DNA of 38,737 bases. It comes from Promethearchaeota archaeon. Lineage in GTDB: Archaea > Asgardarchaeota > Lokiarchaeia > Sigyniarchaeales > SOKP01. Every line of letters begins with the position of its first letter. Within the stretch, counting starts at the first letter, position 1. The notes beneath the pieces were generated by a model. It was not told the DNA's origin and ran no database searches. It saw nothing but the letters and a program-made list of their open reading frames with translations. Location: contig SDNY01000021.1 of the NCBI GenBank assembly GCA_004524535.1, positions 1 through 38,737 of the forward strand, given 5' to 3'. The position numbers and the translations under genes were made by a program. Positions 5,321 to 25,206 of the stretch are shown one piece after another.

Positions 5321-5467
5321 AGTGATTTGATTCATTTAAATTCATCAGTTACTATTTAACTTAATCATTTTACATCTTTTATCTATAAGTAAAAATAATT
5401 TAGTATAGAAAAAAGGAGATTTTTTTATATATTATTTTGAAATTAATGCCAAACTATTATAATATTT

Positions 5468-5863
5468 TTAAAGTGATAAAAATTCTTCTTTTGACATATA
5501 CTGTCTATGCTTCTGGTCTGCCCATAGTTTACGATAAAAGTAGAAATATTCATATAAATCGTATTTATTTGGGGAATATATTAATATTCCATTTTCGATT
5601 ATATCGATTTTTATATGTAGAGGTAATTCTGAAAAAATGCGTATATCATATTTTTTTTTCACTACATTAATATTCCCTACTATAAACGATAATAATTCAA
5701 AATTATCTTCATCCGGAGCGACGATGCAGATATCTACATCGCTCTTGATGGTCTCTTGATCTTTTGCTAAAGATCCATATAATAATATCCCAATAATCTT
5801 CCTTTTTTCTATTATATATAAGAAATCGTTGTAAATTTCCTTTATACGCTCTTTTGCAGCCAA
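5468..5863 (-). CDS. MntA-like nucleotidyltransferase antitoxin
   Basis: A 131-residue minimal nucleotidyltransferase with G30-S31 and D42/D44 in the GSx10DxD pattern (GSLAKDQ, then SDVDICIV). In HepT/MntA systems this protein neutralises the HEPN toxin by adding AMP to the Tyr of its RX4HXY motif. It overlaps the upstream HEPN gene by 22 bp, the usual arrangement for this module. The start is TTG at 5863, inside the HEPN reading frame, which implies translational coupling. A plus-strand frame over the same bases is antisense and discounted. Confidence 0.85.
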   Translation of the reverse strand: MAAKERIKEIYNDFLYIIEKRKIIGILLYGSLAKDQETIKSDVDICIVAPDEDNFELLSFIVGNINVVKKKYDIRIFSELPLHIKIDIIENGILIYSPNKYDLYEYFYFYRKLWADQKHRQYMSKEEFLSL

Positions 5864-6279
5864 CTATCAATAGCCTCTTTATATTTTTCTAGCTCTTCTA
5901 GATATTTTTGAATGCTTTTAAACGCAATTTCTTCATCAAGACTATTATAACTATGAACTATTCTATTTCTTAAACCATTTGCTTGTTTCAAATTATACGA
6001 TAAATCTTTAGAAATAATTCCTTTTTCTGCTAAAACATCGAGGTTAATATAATCATCTTTTGGAATTACTTTTAAATCCTTTATAATCATGGCTGTTAAA
6101 TCTGTTATTATTTCCAGTATAATTTGGTAAGCGTGATATATCGAAAATTGTTCTCTTAAAGTTAATTTAGTAATAAATTCTTTTTCATTTAAATCTTTAG
6201 TCCATTCTTTTAATTTTCCAATTAATTTTGCAAAATATTCTTCTTTTTCTTTATAACGTTGAACTCGTTCTTCATTCAT
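5842..6279 (-). CDS. HepT-like HEPN-domain toxin
   Basis: A 145-residue all-helical protein with the HEPN RNase motif RX4HXY at R104, H109 and Y111 (RNRIVHSY). HepT toxins are RNases that cleave or process RNA, inactivated when the partner nucleotidyltransferase AMPylates the Tyr. All three key residues are present, so the toxin looks intact. It is first in a two-gene minus-strand operon with the MntA-like protein. ATG start. Confidence in the family is high; the RNA target is unknown. Confidence 0.85.
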   Translation of the reverse strand: MNEERVQRYKEKEEYFAKLIGKLKEWTKDLNEKEFITKLTLREQFSIYHAYQIILEIITDLTAMIIKDLKVIPKDDYINLDVLAEKGIISKDLSYNLKQANGLRNRIVHSYNSLDEEIAFKSIQKYLEELEKYKEAIDSWLQKSV

Positions 6280-6344
6280 AATATCATAAATTATTATTTC
6301 TAATTATTTGAATTTTTCTTACTTTTTTACTTAATAATTATGAA

Positions 6345-6470
6345 AAGAGTAAGCTTGTTCGAATCTTGATAAGGCTTGAGGATAAAGTATATTCATTTAC
6401 GATCCCTCTAGATGGAAATCAAGTAGTGAGTGTCTCAAAAGATAATACTGTAAAAATTTAGGATTTATAA
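6345..6470 (+). pseudogene. remnant of a WD40-repeat protein (C-terminal blade)
   Basis: One plus-strand frame has no start codon but reads PLDGNQVVSVSKDNTVKI, then TAG at 6459-6461, then Asp-Leu and a second stop. This is a near-canonical WD40 blade (DGxxVVSxSxDxTVKIWDL) in which the Trp codon TGG has become TAG. The frame is open upstream for roughly forty codons without an initiator. I read it as the tail of a decayed beta-propeller gene; WD40 proteins are common in Asgard archaea. It lies between the HEPN toxin and the coiled-coil gene. Confidence 0.55.
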
Positions 6471-6514
6471 GAAGCAATAAAATAATTTTATTTTATTAAA
6501 TTCTTTTTTAGAAT

Positions 6515-11482: not shown

Positions 11483-14400
11483 ATGAAAAATAATAGAGAA
11501 TCCGAAAAACAATATAGAAACTTTCTAGAGAATCTGAATGACATCGCTTACGAAACAGACAAATTTGGCAATATAACTTATTGTAATAAGATTACAGAAG
11601 AAATAAGTGGTTTATCTATGGATAAAATAATAGGATATAATTTCTTACACTTGTTTTCAGAAGAAAATGGGAAGTTAGCATTAGAAAATTTTACTAAAAC
11701 TCTAAATGGAGAATCTCCTACATTTGAACTAACCTTTATCAATAGTGGAAAAATTTGTCAGTTTAGTAATAAACCATTGAAAAATGATAAAGAAGAAATT
11801 ATTGGTGTATCTGGTATTGCAAGAGACATCACCGAACGCAAGAAGGTGGAGCACGAATTAAAAATATATCAAGATCACCTTGAGGTATTAATAAATGAGA
11901 AGACTAAAGAATTAAAAAAATCAGAAGAAAATTATCGTATAATTACGGAAACAGCTAATGATTTAATCCGCATTCTTAACGATCAATTTAAAATCGAATA
12001 TGTTAATGAATTAACTCATTTAAGAATATTAGGATATTCAAAAGATGAAATGATTGGAAAGTTTGCTGGAATTTTTATGCATCCAGATGAGTATGAACAA
12101 ATTGGCAAATATGCATTTGAATTCCGAAAATATGGATCTTCTAGTCGTGAAGGAAGATTTAAGCATAAAAATGGAATTTGGATCTGGATGGATATTAAAA
12201 GTAAAAGGTATTTTGATAATGAAGGAAATTTGAAAGTATTAACGATTTCAAGAGAAATCACAGACCGTAAAAAAGCAGAACAAAAATTAAAAGAATCAGA
12301 AGAAAGATATCGTATAATTATGGAAACAGCTAATGATTTAATCCGTGTTCTTAACGATAAAGTTGAGATCGAATATATTAACGAATCAACTCATTTAAGA
12401 ATATTAGGATATTCAAAAGATGATTTGATTGGAAAATTCCCGGGAATTTTTATCCATCCAGATGATTATAAACACATGAGTAAATACGTAATTAAACTCC
12501 GAAAAGAAGGATACTACCAACGTGAAGTAAGATTTAAGCATAAAAATGGAACTTGGATCTGGATGGATATTAAAAGTAAAATGTATTTTGATAATGAAGG
12601 AAATTGGAAAGTATTAACGATTTCAAGAGAAATTACAGACCGTAAAAAAGCAGAACAAAAATTAAAAGAATCAGAAGAAAAATTTAAAGCACTTTTTAAA
12701 GGAGGGCCAGTTCCAACATATACATGGCAAGAAGTAGGAAATGATTTCAAATTAATTAATTATAATAATGCTGCGGAAAAATTTACTCTTGGAGATGTGA
12801 AAAAATATTTAGGATTAAAAGCTTCTGAGATGTATAAAGATCGACCTGAGATCTTAAAGGACTTGCATAGTTGTCTTGAAAAGAAAATCAATATTACTCG
12901 TGAGGTGAAATATTATATCAATATTTTAAAAGAAGAAAAAGATCTTTTAGCGAAATATAGTTATATCCCTCCAGACTTGGTATTAGTTCATACAGAGGAT
13001 ATTACAGAAAGAATAAATGCAGAGCAAAAATTAAGAGAATCTGAAGAGAATTATCGTAATATGATTAATAATTTAGATATTGGTTTCTATAAGGGTGAAT
13101 TTAAAGGAAAATTATTAATGCATAATCCTGTCTTAAATGAAATCCTTGGAATTGATCCTTCAAAAAATTTAATTGGCTCAGAGGCGTCTAAATTCTTTAT
13201 TAATCCCGAAGATCAAGAAATCTATTATGAACGATTAATCAATCAAGGATTCATTAAGAATTTTATTATTCAATTAAAAAAAGTAAATGGAGAAAAAATA
13301 AATGTAGAAATAAACGCTCATATGATTTATAATATTGAAGGGAAGCCAAAAGAAATTGAAGGTACAGCCGTGGACATCACCGAAAAATACAGATTAGAAC
13401 AAAAATTAAAGGATTCTGAAATAAAATATCGACATTTATTCGAAAGTTCTCCATACGTTATAGGATTATTAGATCTGAAAGGAAATTTAATAGATTGTAA
13501 CAATGCTGTAAATAAATTACTTTATTTACAATCTAAAGAAGATATAATTGGAAAAAATTTCAGAGAACTTTTTTCAGTAACAAATAAAAACAAACATCTT
13601 ATTCCGATATTCGAAAGAATTTCCAATATAATAAGCAATGGTGATAATACAGAGACGTTTGAATTTCTATTGAATAGGTCTATTGGAGATGTTATATGGC
13701 TAAGTTTAGATTGTTCTTTAATAAAAATAGAAAAAGAAACCCTAATACAAATCATAATCCAAGATATAACAGAACGTAAGAGTTTTGAACAAACTTTAAA
13801 AAGATCTGAAGAAAAATTTCGCTTTCTTTTTGAGAATACGCCTAGTTCTATACTTTTAATAAATCCTGAGGGGATAATTGTTGATTGTAATCCCGCAACT
13901 GAAAAAATAACTGGATATAAAAAACAAGAATTAATAGGCAGAAACTACAGAAATCTCTCTGCAATCGCGCCTAAATATATAGAAATAGCAGATTCTCTTT
14001 TCAGAGAATTCTTTGAAGGAAGAGAACTACATCGTTTAGATATACAACTCTACCATAAAGAAAATCGCTTGATATGGGTAAATTTACAATCATCACTTGT
14101 GAAAATCGGGGAAAAAAGATATTTGCAGTTACTTATGAATGATATTACTGAGCGTAAAAACGCCGAGGCTTTAGTAAAAGAAGAAATTAAAAAATTAAAA
14201 GAATTAGATCAAATTAGAAAAAATCTAATTATTAGAGTATCGCACGAGCTTAAAACCCCCTTAATTCCAGTATGTGGAGGGACTGAGCTTCTTTTAGATG
14301 AATATGAAGAAAAATTATTAGAAAAGGGAATTAGTGAGATAATAAGGATGATTGACAGGGGAGGTCGACGATTAAAATCGTTGATTAACAAATTACTTGA

Positions 14401-19518: not shown

Positions 19519-20808
19519 TTATTTTACTTCGCTTAACTCTACTCCCTTGGTCTCTTTTAAGAATAAGTAGTTTATTGGTATTAGCACGAACAAAATGATT
19601 ACAAAAACAATAAATGTGGTAGCTAAACCGACAATTAATATAACTGCACTGCTTAATAATAATCCAAATGTTCCACCAATAGAGGCAAATACACTTCTTA
19701 ATCCTAATCCTGATCCTCTTCTCTCAGTGGGCAAAAGTTCTAGGGCTGAAAGTCTAAGCATTCCAAATAGACCCCAATAAGAAATATGAGTAGTAGCGTA
19801 TCCTATTTGAACTAGAATGAACGCATAGTTAGGATTTTGAGCTCCAAAAACCCATAGTATAACAGATGTAGGAAGGGATATTGACCATAGATAAATTAAA
19901 GGTTTCCTTCCCAATCGATCGGATAGTATGCCATTTGCTAAATATGCTATTATAACAGCAAAAACAGTCCATAGAAAAATGATTGATATTTGAATTTGGC
20001 TCAATGTAGCTAAGTCGGATACATATTTCTCGAAAAGGAGCATATAGACAGCAGTAAACCCGAAGATTAGGCTCATGATTAGGATGGCTGTGTAAGATTT
20101 ACGATTTTCTGTTTGAAAAATAGCTTTTATATCTTCTTTAAATGATTTTTTTTTCTTTAGAGTCCCATCTTCTTTCATTAACTGATATTTTGATGATTCT
20201 TTCAGAGTCAAAAGGATAAATATGCTTAATGGAACCCCTATAATTATAGGAAAAAGCATCATTGCCCTCCAATTCGAAGCTGTATCTGTTATAAAAATAG
20301 AACGCAAAATCACCATTATAAATGCACCAATTAATCCAGCCAATAAAATAATATTCGTGTAGAACGCGCGCTTCTTTTTATCGGACTCTTCATTGATATA
20401 AATTAACCATACATCTGAACGCTGAAAAAAACCGAGGAGGAGCGCTAATATTACATACATAATATAAGTCGTAGATAGTATTATTAAAAAACATGTGGCT
20501 CCCATACCTAAAACTGTAATGGCAAGCATTATTTTACGACCTAATTTATCTGTGAGATATTGACTAAAAAAGATCAAATATGCTCCAATAGAAGATATGC
20601 CTGCTCCTAGAGCCAGTATAGCATTCTGTTCGTTTTCAGTGTATTCACCTAAAAATTCTTTAGCGATTTGAGAAGGGATAGCACCTAGCACCACTGTACA
20701 GTAGGTATCTACTATTTGTACTAGCATTAATACAACAATTAAAAATATGAAGTAAGCTCTTGTTATTGAGATTTCTTTTGAAATATCAGTATTATTTTTT
20801 TCAGACAT
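19519..20808 (-). CDS. MFS transporter, probable sugar-acid uptake
   Basis: A 429-residue twelve-helix MFS protein with both inter-half signatures: TDKLGRKIM after helix 2 and LSDRLGRKPLIY at the matching place in the second half. The central cytoplasmic loop is Lys-rich (GTLKKKKSFKED). It leads an operon with the split UxaA-like dehydratase, so uptake of the dehydratase substrate is the simplest role. Upstream lies a 92-bp divergent promoter that originally served an IlvD-type gene. A TATA-like sequence sits only about 25-30 bp before its ATG on this strand, consistent with a leaderless transcript. Confidence 0.85.
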   Translation of the reverse strand: MSEKNNTDISKEISITRAYFIFLIVVLMLVQIVDTYCTVVLGAIPSQIAKEFLGEYTENEQNAILALGAGISSIGAYLIFFSQYLTDKLGRKIMLAITVLGMGATCFLIILSTTYIMYVILALLLGFFQRSDVWLIYINEESDKKKRAFYTNIILLAGLIGAFIMVILRSIFITDTASNWRAMMLFPIIIGVPLSIFILLTLKESSKYQLMKEDGTLKKKKSFKEDIKAIFQTENRKSYTAILIMSLIFGFTAVYMLLFEKYVSDLATLSQIQISIIFLWTVFAVIIAYLANGILSDRLGRKPLIYLWSISLPTSVILWVFGAQNPNYAFILVQIGYATTHISYWGLFGMLRLSALELLPTERRGSGLGLRSVFASIGGTFGLLLSSAVILIVGLATTFIVFVIILFVLIPINYLFLKETKGVELSEVK

Positions 20809-20900
20809 AATTGATATATCTACCTATTTAATATATAAATCTTGCATTAGGATTAATATTGCCTAATTAATTTTAATTTAAAATTATAAAGGAATTTAAT
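20809..20900. promoter_or_regulatory. divergent promoter, copy A
   Basis: These 92 bp separate the MFS start (minus) from a truncated IlvD start (plus). Aligned without gaps, 78 of 92 bases match the 92 bp before the intact IlvD-like gene (23444-23535). A TATA element (TTTAATATATAAAT, about 20827-20840) and the AAAGGA ribosome site are conserved in both. Confidence 0.6.
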
Positions 20901-20969
20901 ATGAGCGAAAAAGAAGTGAATTTAAAAAAGCGAAGCGATGAATTATTTGAAACAATTAAAAAACTTTAA
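20901..20969 (+). pseudogene. truncated 5' end of an IlvD-like dehydratase gene
   Basis: A 22-codon frame (MSEKEVNLKKRSDELFETIK, then K-L-stop) repeats the start of the IlvD-like gene at 23536. Over the first 61 bases only three differ (CGA/CGG, TTT/TTC, GAA/GAG), all synonymous. Homology stops in a run of A. The promoter and ribosome site are kept, so a short peptide could still be made. The silent differences suggest the copy diverged as a functional gene before it was cut. Confidence 0.8.
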
Positions 20970-21036
20970 AAAATAAATATTTATAGAACGACAATATTAT
21001 AACAAATGTAATCAAGTAAAACAATGATAATTAATT

Positions 21037-21927
21037 ATGTCAGAAAATTCATTTGATAAATTTAAATATGTATTAAAGGAAGATTTAAAATCTTATCTCA
21101 ATGGTTTAAATGATTTAGATTTCGGATTTTGTAATATTTTAAGTAATCGTATAATGACTAATTCACTAATCTTAAACTCTAAGATTAATGCACTATTGGG
21201 AGCAGTTTTAAAAGAAATAACTTACGAATTTAGATTTTATAAAGAAGATGTAAATTTAAAAAGAGGTTTAAGAAAACTGAAAAAAATCCTAAATAATTAC
21301 ATCTCTGATAAATATGATTTAGATGCAAAAATGATTATGGAAGATTATCAAGATTATTATAATGAATTTAGGGATTTAATAAAAGTTGAACGAGAAATCT
21401 ATAAAGACAATCCAGAGTTTTCTCAATTTTCAATTAATTTTTGTCTTGAATTCTATATTAAAGAATTAAACTTTAATGATACCCCAGTTAATTTAGATGT
21501 TCTAGTTTTTGGAGTTCTTAATGAACTTAATAGGGTTATTAAAAGTCATGGTTCAACTTCTAAACAGTTGATGCTAAAAATCATTCTAAATTCTTTTGGT
21601 AGAATGCATGAATACTTTAGAATCTATCTACAATATGAAGAAGAAAAAATAAAGAGATGGAAAGAATCATATGATAAATTTAAGAAAAACTTATTAGATA
21701 ATCTAGAAAGATTTAATGATGATAAAGATTATATAGAAAACAGTATTGATTTTTTATTTGAGATTTGTAAAGAATGGAGATATATGTTTATTAGAATGTT
21801 GGAGATTCCAAAAATTTCAACTTCTGTTGTAGAAAAACAAACTACGGTTCCGAAAAAGGTAAAGGAAGATTTAGATGAAATAGTTTCAGAATTAATAGAC
21901 TCAAAACTAGAAGATAAAAAAGAATGA
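21037..21927 (+). CDS. hypothetical helical protein, first gene of the cassette
   Basis: A 296-residue protein predicted almost entirely alpha-helical and charged, without a signal peptide or membrane segment. No family is recognised. It has its own promoter candidate (AAATAAATATTTATAG near 20970-20985), immediately after the IlvD truncation point. Its stop overlaps the next start by four bases (ATGA), so it is coupled to the 342-residue protein. Aromatic and charged residues are spread through the middle (YQDYYNEFRDL). With its partners it lies between two copies of the IlvD promoter region, so it probably arrived as a unit. Function unknown. Confidence 0.75.
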   Translation: MSENSFDKFKYVLKEDLKSYLNGLNDLDFGFCNILSNRIMTNSLILNSKINALLGAVLKEITYEFRFYKEDVNLKRGLRKLKKILNNYISDKYDLDAKMIMEDYQDYYNEFRDLIKVEREIYKDNPEFSQFSINFCLEFYIKELNFNDTPVNLDVLVFGVLNELNRVIKSHGSTSKQLMLKIILNSFGRMHEYFRIYLQYEEEKIKRWKESYDKFKKNLLDNLERFNDDKDYIENSIDFLFEICKEWRYMFIRMLEIPKISTSVVEKQTTVPKKVKEDLDEIVSELIDSKLEDKKE

Positions 21928-22952
21928 CTGAAAAGATAAAGAAATCTTTTGATTTTAAAAATATTTTAGTTGAGATCGAAAAATTTAATCCCCATTGTAC
22001 TCGAGAGGAAATTATCAAATCTATAGGGAGTCACATCACAGATATTTATTATACGAGAGTCAATGAGCTTGGATTAAAAGATAAGTTAGATCGGTTTGCC
22101 CGAAAAAAATTATTATTACAGAGAAGTAGACAAGCTAAAAAAGCTCAAGTATTGACGGACTCTAAAATAAAAAAGGATGAAATGATTTCAGAATATAAAG
22201 GGATTAAGTCAATACTAACAGGCTTATCAAAATCCTATGCTTATAACAATGCATATTTTGATACAAGAGAAATTGATAAATTTAGCGATTCTGACTCATC
22301 AGATTTCATGATTAATGGAGAGTCTGTAAATCTATTGAAGGATAAAGATGACTTACTACAAGCTAGTTTTAAACCCAAGTTAGAAGAAGATCTTAAAAAT
22401 ATTGACAGAGAGTCTAAAAGCAGTAATTCATTAATTAAAGAAGATATCGAATTATATGATCAAACAGTTGTAATTGAAGGATTAGAAACAGAACCACTTT
22501 TTCCACTTGAAGATGAAGATGTTTCCTTAATTGATAATTTTGATGAATCGTTCTTTTTCAATAATAGACAATATCAAACTTTAAAGGATGAAATTTATAA
22601 TTCAAGAAAACATATTTTAAGTTTAGGGGAAAATTGGAATGGAGAAGGGAGTAAAGCGTTTAACCTTGAAGTCTGGAGGTTTGCTTCAGATTTTTTAATT
22701 AATTTCTTTTACAAATTTAATTTAAGACATTCATTAAATCTAAAAGTTCCTAATATTTTACCAGTTGGAGATTTAAGTATTGACATTCATTGGAAAACTG
22801 AAGAAATGGAATTAACAATCAATTTTTCTGAAGAGTTCTTAAATTTACCCAGTTTTTATGGAAAGGATAATAAAAATAATGAAATCCAAGGAATTATTGA
22901 TATTGATAAAATTCATACTGTGATTTTTCCATGGTTAAAAAACTTCCGTTAA
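21924..22952 (+). CDS. hypothetical protein with GENWNGEGSKAF-type C-terminal domain
   Basis: A 342-residue protein in two parts: a charged, mostly helical and probably flexible region (1-210) and a compact C-terminal domain (about 215-342). The domain has NWNGEGSKA (237-245), a helix, LPVGDLSIDIHW (279-290) and a strand ELTINFSEE. From memory, a conserved family with an N-W-D/N-G-x-G-A motif followed by a P-x-G-x-I-x-x-E/D-W strand is widespread in bacteria next to a small partner like the next gene; I know no established function for it. The following gene starts 22 bp before this one ends, so the two are translationally coupled. Confidence 0.7.
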   Translation: MTEKIKKSFDFKNILVEIEKFNPHCTREEIIKSIGSHITDIYYTRVNELGLKDKLDRFARKKLLLQRSRQAKKAQVLTDSKIKKDEMISEYKGIKSILTGLSKSYAYNNAYFDTREIDKFSDSDSSDFMINGESVNLLKDKDDLLQASFKPKLEEDLKNIDRESKSSNSLIKEDIELYDQTVVIEGLETEPLFPLEDEDVSLIDNFDESFFFNNRQYQTLKDEIYNSRKHILSLGENWNGEGSKAFNLEVWRFASDFLINFFYKFNLRHSLNLKVPNILPVGDLSIDIHWKTEEMELTINFSEEFLNLPSFYGKDNKNNEIQGIIDIDKIHTVIFPWLKNFR

Positions 22953-23353
22953 AAGTCAAAAATCTTCCAAATATGGATTTTTTATTCAGAAATTTCAACC
23001 TTAAACTAATTGTTAAACCTAGGGGATACAATGCTCATGAAGTGCCAATAAATGCTTTTAGGGATGAAAATGGAGATGGAATATCTACCGCTTGGGAAAA
23101 ATACTGTAGTGCAAAAAAGTTAAGACGATTAGCAAGGGTACCTAAATTTAATGGAGTAATTAAAATGAATGCTGGAAACATTCGTAAGATTCCCTCCTTA
23201 GAGGTTGTCCATAATCCAACAATGAGAAATTAAGGTCATTCTCTAATAAAAGGATTACCTAATAATCGAGCAGAAAGATTAAAAATAAGAAGCAAATTAA
23301 AAAATATTGCTAAATGGGTAATACCTCTAAATATGGATTTGATTGAATCTTAA
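22931..23353 (+). pseudogene. small partner protein interrupted by an in-frame TAA
   Basis: The frame runs 140 codons from the ATG at 22931 to a TAA at 23351, with a single internal TAA at codon 101 (23231-23233). Before it lie DGISTAWEKYCSAKK and NAGNIRKIPSLEVVHNP; after it GHSLIKG, RLKIRSKLKNIAKWVIPL. The downstream part keeps conserved-looking sequence in the same frame, so this is a one-base nonsense change and not a frameshift. It may be a recent pseudogene, a shortened but functional protein of 100 residues, or readthrough. It overlaps the 342-residue gene by 22 bp. Family function unknown. Confidence 0.6.
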
Positions 23354-23443
23354 TATAAAATCTAATTAATAATTTGAACGATATTTCACAATTTTCTCGG
23401 TTTAATAATAGCCATTTATTAAATATGCTTTTTTTTCAACCAT

Positions 23444-23535
23444 AATTCATATATCTATTTATTTATTATATAAATATTACATTTGAAGTATTATTGTTTT
23501 ATTAATTTTAAATTAAAATTATAAAGGAATTTAAT
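23444..23535. promoter_or_regulatory. divergent promoter, copy B (serves the IlvD-like gene)
   Basis: This is the 92-bp homologue of 20809-20900. The TATA element TTTATTATATAAAT (23462-23475) and the AAAGGA ribosome site precede the IlvD ATG. On the other strand it still starts a minus-strand ATG (23441-23443) with MVEKK, resembling the MSEKN of the MFS gene, but that frame ends after 13 codons. Confidence 0.6.
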
Positions 23536-25206
23536 ATGAGCGAAAAAGAAGTGAATTTAAAAAAGCGGAGCGATGAATTATTCGAGACAATTAAAAAAAC
23601 ACCATTTGTATATGCCACCTTAGGGATTATTAGCGGGTTAGGTTTAGAAGAAAAAGAGATTTATAATAAACCTTTCATCGGAATTGTGAACACTTGGAAC
23701 GAAATCAATCCCGGGCATATGCATCTACGTTCTTTAGCCGAGGCTGTTAAGCTTGGTATTGCTGAGGCAGGGGGGATTCCACTTGAATTTAATACTATTG
23801 CACCTTGTGACGGATGGGGTAATGCAAATGTAGGCATGCGTTTTATACTTCCTCAGAGAGAAATAATTGCCGATTCTATTGAAGCCATGGTTGAGGCACA
23901 TCGACTTGATGCTATAGTTACTCTTTCGAGTTGCGATAAAATTAATCCCGCCGTTCTAATGGCCGCTGTAAGGTTAGATATTCCCACCATTTGCGTGCCG
24001 GGAGGACCAAATCTATTTAAAGTTGCATTTTCCCCTGAATATAAAGGAATAGATGTAAAATGCTACGATGATTTCAAACAAAAACCAAGATGTATCTCAT
24101 GTGCTACTCCAGGCGCGTGCGAATTTATGGGTACTGCGAATACAACTCAAGCCTTGATGGAAGTTTTTGGAATGACGCTCCCAAATGCAGCTACAACTCC
24201 TGCATTTACACGCATGAAATATATAATTGCAAAGAATTCGGGAAGAAAAATTATGGATTTACTTAAAAAAGGAATAACTCCTTCGCAGATAATGACTGAA
24301 AAGTCTTTAGAAAACGTTATGATTGCTGATGCTGCTATTGGAGGGTCCACAAATGCGACATTACATATTCCCGCAATAGCCCACGAAATGGGTTTGGATT
24401 TTGATATAGAAATTTTTAACGAGTATAGTAAAAAGATTCCTATGATTGTAAATGTGTCACCTTCAGGTGAATATGGGGTTGTAGATCTCTATAATGCTGG
24501 AGGAATTCCTGCTGTGTTAAATCGAATCAGGGATTATCTTAATTTAGATTGTATGACAGTTTCAGAAAAACCAATTGGTAAGCTAATTCGAAGAACTAAA
24601 GGTTTAGACGATAAGGTTATTAGGCCATTGGAAAACCCTGTGTATCCTGAAGGCGGAACCGTGATATTAAAAGGTAATTTAGCTCCTAAGTGTGCAGTTG
24701 TAAAACAATCTGCTGTTACTAATAGGAATATGTTGCAATTTGAGGGGCCTGCTAAAGTTTTTGATTCTGAAACTGACGCAATCAATGCTTTTGCTAAGCG
24801 AGAAATAAAAAATGGATCTGTTATTGTTGTTCGCTATGAAGGTCCAAAAGGAGGGCCCGGAATGCCTGAATTAGTTGGTTTAACAACCAATTTAATGTTG
24901 AGAAATGATATGAATGAGGTTGCCTTAATAACGGATGGTCGCTTTTCAGGAGCTACCCAAGGTCCTTGCATAGGACATCTATGCCCTGAAGCGTATGTGG
25001 GAGGACCGATAGCAGTTGTTCAAGATGGTGATATTATAAAAATTGACATACCTAATAGAACCCTTAATTTTGATGTATCCGATGATGAAATTAAGGAACG
25101 GTTTAAAAATTGGAAGCCATTTGAAAGAGATATTAAAAGTAGAGTATTATTAAAATATAGAAAATTGGTTACAGATTCATCTAAAGGCGCAATTTTAGAA
25201 TTTTAA
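23536..25206 (+). CDS. IlvD/Edd-family dehydratase (dihydroxy-acid or sugar-acid)
   Basis: A 556-residue Fe-S dehydratase with family blocks SSCDKINPAVLMAA (C133), CATPGACEFMGTANT (C189, C195), GGSTNATLH, and TDGRFSGATQGPCIGH. Members dehydrate 2,3-dihydroxy acids: DHAD for branched-chain amino acids, 6-phosphogluconate dehydratase, or sugar-acid dehydratases such as xylonate and gluconate. At the place where DHAD has its first cluster Cys (NPCN), this protein has Gly60 (NPGHMHL), and a Cys occurs later in APCDGWG (C91), marking a less studied subgroup. Its original divergent neighbour was a UxaA-like operon with a transporter, so a sugar-acid substrate is favoured over valine/isoleucine synthesis. 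The start is supported by AAAGGA. Confidence 0.85.
   Translation: MSEKEVNLKKRSDELFETIKKTPFVYATLGIISGLGLEEKEIYNKPFIGIVNTWNEINPGHMHLRSLAEAVKLGIAEAGGIPLEFNTIAPCDGWGNANVGMRFILPQREIIADSIEAMVEAHRLDAIVTLSSCDKINPAVLMAAVRLDIPTICVPGGPNLFKVAFSPEYKGIDVKCYDDFKQKPRCISCATPGACEFMGTANTTQALMEVFGMTLPNAATTPAFTRMKYIIAKNSGRKIMDLLKKGITPSQIMTEKSLENVMIADAAIGGSTNATLHIPAIAHEMGLDFDIEIFNEYSKKIPMIVNVSPSGEYGVVDLYNAGGIPAVLNRIRDYLNLDCMTVSEKPIGKLIRRTKGLDDKVIRPLENPVYPEGGTVILKGNLAPKCAVVKQSAVTNRNMLQFEGPAKVFDSETDAINAFAKREIKNGSVIVVRYEGPKGGPGMPELVGLTTNLMLRNDMNEVALITDGRFSGATQGPCIGHLCPEAYVGGPIAVVQDGDIIKIDIPNRTLNFDVSDDEIKERFKNWKPFERDIKSRVLLKYRKLVTDSSKGAILEF

Follow-up and report, generated by a model that had tools for sequence, protein, structure and literature searches.

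Insertion with long target duplication was reportedly described by Nobusato et al. in 2000 and Furuta et al. in 2010. It has been named in Helicobacter pylori for restriction-modification genes (PMC1643837, PMC3031569, PMC3874152). How small defence operons that carry no recombinase move is an old open question, mostly studied with bacterial restriction-modification genes. The locus described here belongs to the Loki archaea, relatives of the ancestors of eukaryotes, and lies on a contig stretch of 38,737 nucleotides (the whole of which is referred to as the window). It consists of a three-gene operon between an MFS transporter gene and an ilvD-type gene, with a copy of one long direct repeat on either side. 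Our preferred reading, to which we assign a probability of about 0.8, is that a mobile three-gene operon, which encodes no recombinase, was inserted in the divergent promoter of MFS and ilvD, and that about 169 bp of the target was duplicated.

The repeat and the operon in the window

The two copies of the direct repeat occupy 20795-20963 and 23430-23598. They are 169 bp long and identical at 150 of 169 positions (89%), and the pair stands far beyond chance in a self-BLAST of the window (E about 1e-58). The repeat comprises 14 bp of the 5' end of MFS, a 92-bp divergent spacer, and the first 21 codons (63 bp) of ilvD, with T7 and A6 runs at both repeat ends. A preliminary description of this DNA had recognized the duplicated spacer and ilvD start and had placed the break points in A/T runs; both observations are borne out, the repeat being 14 bp longer because the first MFS codons had been missed. 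Its difference counts also hold: the copies match at 78 of 92 spacer positions (14 differences), and the three differences in the 63 bp of ilvD are, on codon reading, all silent (CGA/CGG, TTT/TTC, and GAA/GAG). The divergence between the copies is uneven, with 7 private changes in 60 bp vs. 1 in 63 bp (p = 0.03), so that gene conversion or a donor copy that had already diverged is possible at this site. As to a widespread dispersed element, the host genome (a 3.66-Mb bin in which the window is contig C61) has just one further match to the repeat, a weak one of 73% over 98 bp, and this interpretation was rejected.

On the left, the MFS gene (19519-20808, reverse strand, ATG at 20808) retains its start and spacer, and the left copy continues through the spacer (20809-20900) into ilvD codons (20901-20963) that now form part of a dead 24-codon ORF. 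On the right, the repeat is joined to a complete gene for an ilvD/edd-family dehydratase (23536-25206, forward strand), whose promoter side and start are likewise intact, and it holds a relic MFS start (MVEKK..., ATG at 23443). Elsewhere in the window, a stretch within a PAS-histidine kinase gene is duplicated in tandem (11892-12683).

The unique DNA between the copies (20964-23429, forward strand) is 2466 bp long and has a G+C content of 26%, vs. 31% for the window. It contains three co-directional genes, referred to here as P1 (21037-21927), P2 (21924-22952), and P3 (22931-23233). These had been taken for three unrelated genes, a claim that is refuted by their arrangement as one operon, in which P1 and P2 overlap by ATGA and P2 and P3 by 22 nt, and whose gene order is retained at the locus L004 of another Lokiarchaeal genus. 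P1 (296 aa) is predicted to be all-helical (pLDDT 80), has no match in Pfam, NCBIfam or PADLOC, nor in PDB when its predicted fold is compared, and, among 228 Asgard genomes, occurs in 7, which all belong to one order. P2 consists of an N-terminal adaptor (P2N), common to the PIN-carrying cassette of genome G017 discussed below, and a C-terminal domain (P2C) with a weak match to the PADLOC candidate PDC-M32A (E = 0.001). P3 has 100 aa in the window and 145 aa in L004, being cut by a nonsense codon (TAA at 23231-23233) where L004 reads TAT, which suggests that the operon may be decaying in the window. We found no relatives of P1 in viral contigs and phages, no relatives of P2 and P3 in plasmids, and no restriction-modification domain in any of the three proteins. 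Nor was a recognised toxin domain seen in P1-P3; the corresponding slot in relatives is occupied by PIN or HEPN.

Cassette-free sites and further inserts

Window positions 20962-23371 share 84% DNA identity with L004 7932-10334 (genome G020), where the neighbours of the cassette are unrelated to MFS and ilvD. The operon is therefore found in two genera, and four congeners of the L004 genome lack it at that locus. In G020 the empty site is clear, and a long flanking repeat was looked for and not found; upstream of the cassette lies a long imperfect palindrome (L004 7375-7458). Within the window's genus, G004 has the spacer and ilvD without the cassette, the left repeat copy being matched there by one stretch of 86% identity, and a kelch gene replaces MFS. 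In G001, MFS and ilvD are directly divergent without the cassette, the arrangement that the preliminary description had suggested looking for, at only about 75% identity. Since another genus has an 84% identical operon at a locus unrelated to this one and the ilvD site of close relatives is free of it, we consider the window operon to have been inserted. The window's own empty site is represented by G004, which has lost MFS, and by the divergent G001, neither of them a very close relative. The gene adjoining ilvD in G004 is a 1705-aa kelch-repeat gene (L040 11277-16394); kelch gene repeats in contig C7 of the same genome were considered as an insertion and rejected, as they are paralogue promoters.

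A second case comes from G017, in which a cassette of P1, P2, and a PIN gene (PF01850), with a P1 43% identical to that of the window, lies between two copies of a 143-bp direct repeat unlike the window repeat in sequence. This repeat corresponds to the 3' end of an AbiEii-type gene and the sequence downstream of it. At the same locus, the sister genome G026 (98-99% identical) has TnpB, a single 143-bp copy, and then the AbiEii gene, and both G017 copies are nearly identical to this single copy, which fits simple copying. We read this locus, which has no relation to ilvD, as a clean target-duplicating insertion. Its direction rests on distribution, because precise excision through the repeats would mimic an empty site; excision through the direct repeats of the window may likewise be possible. 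The window and G017 have unique parts of equal length (2466 bp); as their gene contents differ, we take this as coincidence. Of the two origins offered in the preliminary description, entry of a cassette stands, restated through G017 and G026 as a target-duplicating insertion, while interruption of a tandem-duplicated locus found no support. The idea of a copied gene start as a fixed "restoring end" of the element is also unsupported, since the repeat sequence changes from site to site.

Scanning 1.35 Mb against itself revealed further cases; three of these, an orphan gene, a ShosTA-like pair and a membrane gene, lie within the genus and bear the same signature. On contig C65 of genome G000, one orphan 171-aa gene is flanked by a 158-168 bp repeat that includes the 3' end of an acyl-CoA dehydrogenase gene and is single-copy in G003 and G004 (empty sites). 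Copy 1 is nearer to G003 and copy 2 nearer to G004. The left flank is 97.5% identical to G003 and 91% to G004, and the adjacent acyl-CoA dehydrogenase stretch is 92% identical to both, which share 95% with each other. The two alleles and the change of ancestry across the insert fit imported flanking DNA, and suggest that DNA on one side may have arrived with the insert; a later recombination event running to where homology ends would leave the same pattern. On contig C18 of G000, a ShosA/ShosT-like pair (L144 3114-4836; E = 4e-72 and 2e-5, respectively) is flanked by a repeat of 199 bp derived from msrA. In G004, msrA is intact and has no such pair beside it, but this empty site is not clean, owing to a further partial copy 6 kb away. 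Near a PIN-like gene on L144, sequences of 59-70 bp (1403-1461 and 2221-2289) have matches at numerous sites in the genomes of this genus and are possibly the ends of a small mobile element. The remaining cases are a 345-aa membrane gene on contig C27 of G004, with an 86-96 bp repeat that is single-copy in the window, and, as a candidate, an LmuB-like SMC ATPase operon of G033 (L069 9754-14112) with a 315-bp, 92% direct repeat.

Long duplications do not accompany every indel, an idea that was rejected on about twelve other large indels that distinguish G000 from G004 (counted outside the window locus), whose overlap is at most 19 bp. With most large indels lacking a long overlap, the long-duplication events form a subset of insertions. 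A HepT-like/nucleotidyltransferase (HEPN/MNT) pair at window 5344-6477 is missing from the corresponding place in G004, and the overlap there is no more than a short A/T stretch. No such repeats were found in 280 kb of distant Asgard controls, a sample too limited in size, and too different in lineage, to serve for estimating a rate. That defence genes are enriched among the inserts is an impression from few cases.

Routes of insertion and alternative readings

We propose that the operon, moving horizontally, would have entered the divergent promoter shared by the MFS and ilvD-type genes, and that about 169 bp of target would have been duplicated on insertion, one copy lying with MFS and the other with ilvD. 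As one repeat copy stays with each gene, both keep a promoter and a start. The window insert has no transposase, integrase or terminal inverted repeats, and the inserts compared share neither an end motif nor an attachment core, their repeats being unrelated between sites. For an element without a recombinase and without conserved ends, the likely route would be capture of DNA through illegitimate end joining or through homologous recombination on one side, by which the target stretch is either copied or imported.

Copying would follow if staggered nicks or a break with long overhangs were filled in during capture of foreign DNA, giving a true target duplication. The clean G017/G026 case, the variable repeat lengths (about 90 to 200 bp), and the breakpoints at A/T runs all favour this sub-mechanism, but fill-in alone does not explain the two different alleles at the C65 insert; we place it somewhat short of an even chance. 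Import is only a little better than a one-in-three prospect: a linear donor fragment carrying the cassette and its own spacer and ilvD start would have recombined within ilvD on the right and formed an illegitimate joint on the left, making copy 2 the donor allele. This would account for the unevenly diverged copies of the window and for the alleles and ancestry change at C65, and bacteria are known to carry out homology-facilitated illegitimate recombination (PMC3240628). However, it requires a donor with the cassette already beside ilvD, of which none was found, and it sits poorly with the G017 copies, which are both nearly identical to that of G026.

Other readings are far less probable than target duplication. 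As the window contig comes from a bin of 198 contigs and its repeat copies resemble two alleles, the locus might be an assembly chimera of two strain haplotypes in one metagenome bin; this is improbable, since the joints between cassette and repeat overlap by short A/T only, with no long common word, and the same anatomy recurs in the separate genome G017. Slightly less credible than a chimera is a site-specific integrative element with an attachment site that duplicates the end of a gene: the repeats do include gene ends, as in islands that restore their target gene, but the 2.4-kb inserts lack an integrase, the repeats are unrelated between sites, and ends are not shared. Least probable is the remnant of a full MFS-ilvD tandem duplication later overwritten by the cassette, which would explain the doubled start region but not why the duplicated gene bodies leave no trace or why the same pattern is found at unrelated sites.

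The cassette family and known systems

The pair formed by P1 and P2N has a changing third partner, either P2C-P3 or PIN (PF01850), and a P1 relative elsewhere occurs with a different second gene and HEPN (PF05168). The family to which this carrier belongs, with PIN, HEPN or P3 in the partner position, is uncharacterised. Its toxin-type partners are interchangeable, and the operon genes overlap and are co-directional, as in toxin-antitoxin systems; this suggests a module of toxin-antitoxin or defence type, and the window operon is probably a toxin-antitoxin or anti-virus module. The P2C-P3 pair also occurs on contig C2 of G000 and in G042, with a TIGR04255 gene in place of P1-P2N; these loci share the PDC-M32A-like domain and P3 with the window and differ in their upstream gene. 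A broader proposal, which we regard as tentative and rather doubtful, is that Lokiarchaea recurrently capture small defence or toxin-antitoxin operons without recombinases and with target duplications of 90-300 bp, and that P1-P2N represents an antitoxin-like carrier of a new kind, on which toxins can be exchanged.

In the open literature we found no Asgard or toxin-antitoxin-like case of insertion with long target duplication, a result that points only weakly to absence. From the present sequences, such insertion looks like a transposase-free route of gene acquisition in these archaea. With close pairs of Asgard genomes that differ by an insert, the movement of such operons can be tested directly in archaea, and the insert with two alleles provides a means of distinguishing target copying from donor import.

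ShosTA, listed as commoner in Asgard archaea than in other prokaryotes (PMC11291487), resembles the cargo of the C18 insert and differs from that of the window. The transposed genes of Arabidopsis (PMC2869330) are similarly flanked by direct repeats that are single in a sister species and may derive from the end of a neighbouring gene; they differ in belonging to a eukaryote, in their many cargo types, and in the circle reintegration proposed for them. The closest likeness is to insertion with long target duplication, in which gene units are bounded by long, variable duplications around 100 bp in size, as comparison of insert-bearing with insert-free genomes has shown (PMC3874152, PMC3031569, PMC1643837). 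Here too, repeats of about 100 bp or more surround a gene unit, their length and sequence vary between events (169, 143, 158-168, and 199 bp), and for the related cases insert-free relatives carry a single copy (G026, G003, and G004). The difference lies in the cargo, which in the known cases is typically, but not necessarily, restriction-modification genes, and in Lokiarchaeia includes a toxin-antitoxin-like operon, a ShosTA pair, and others.
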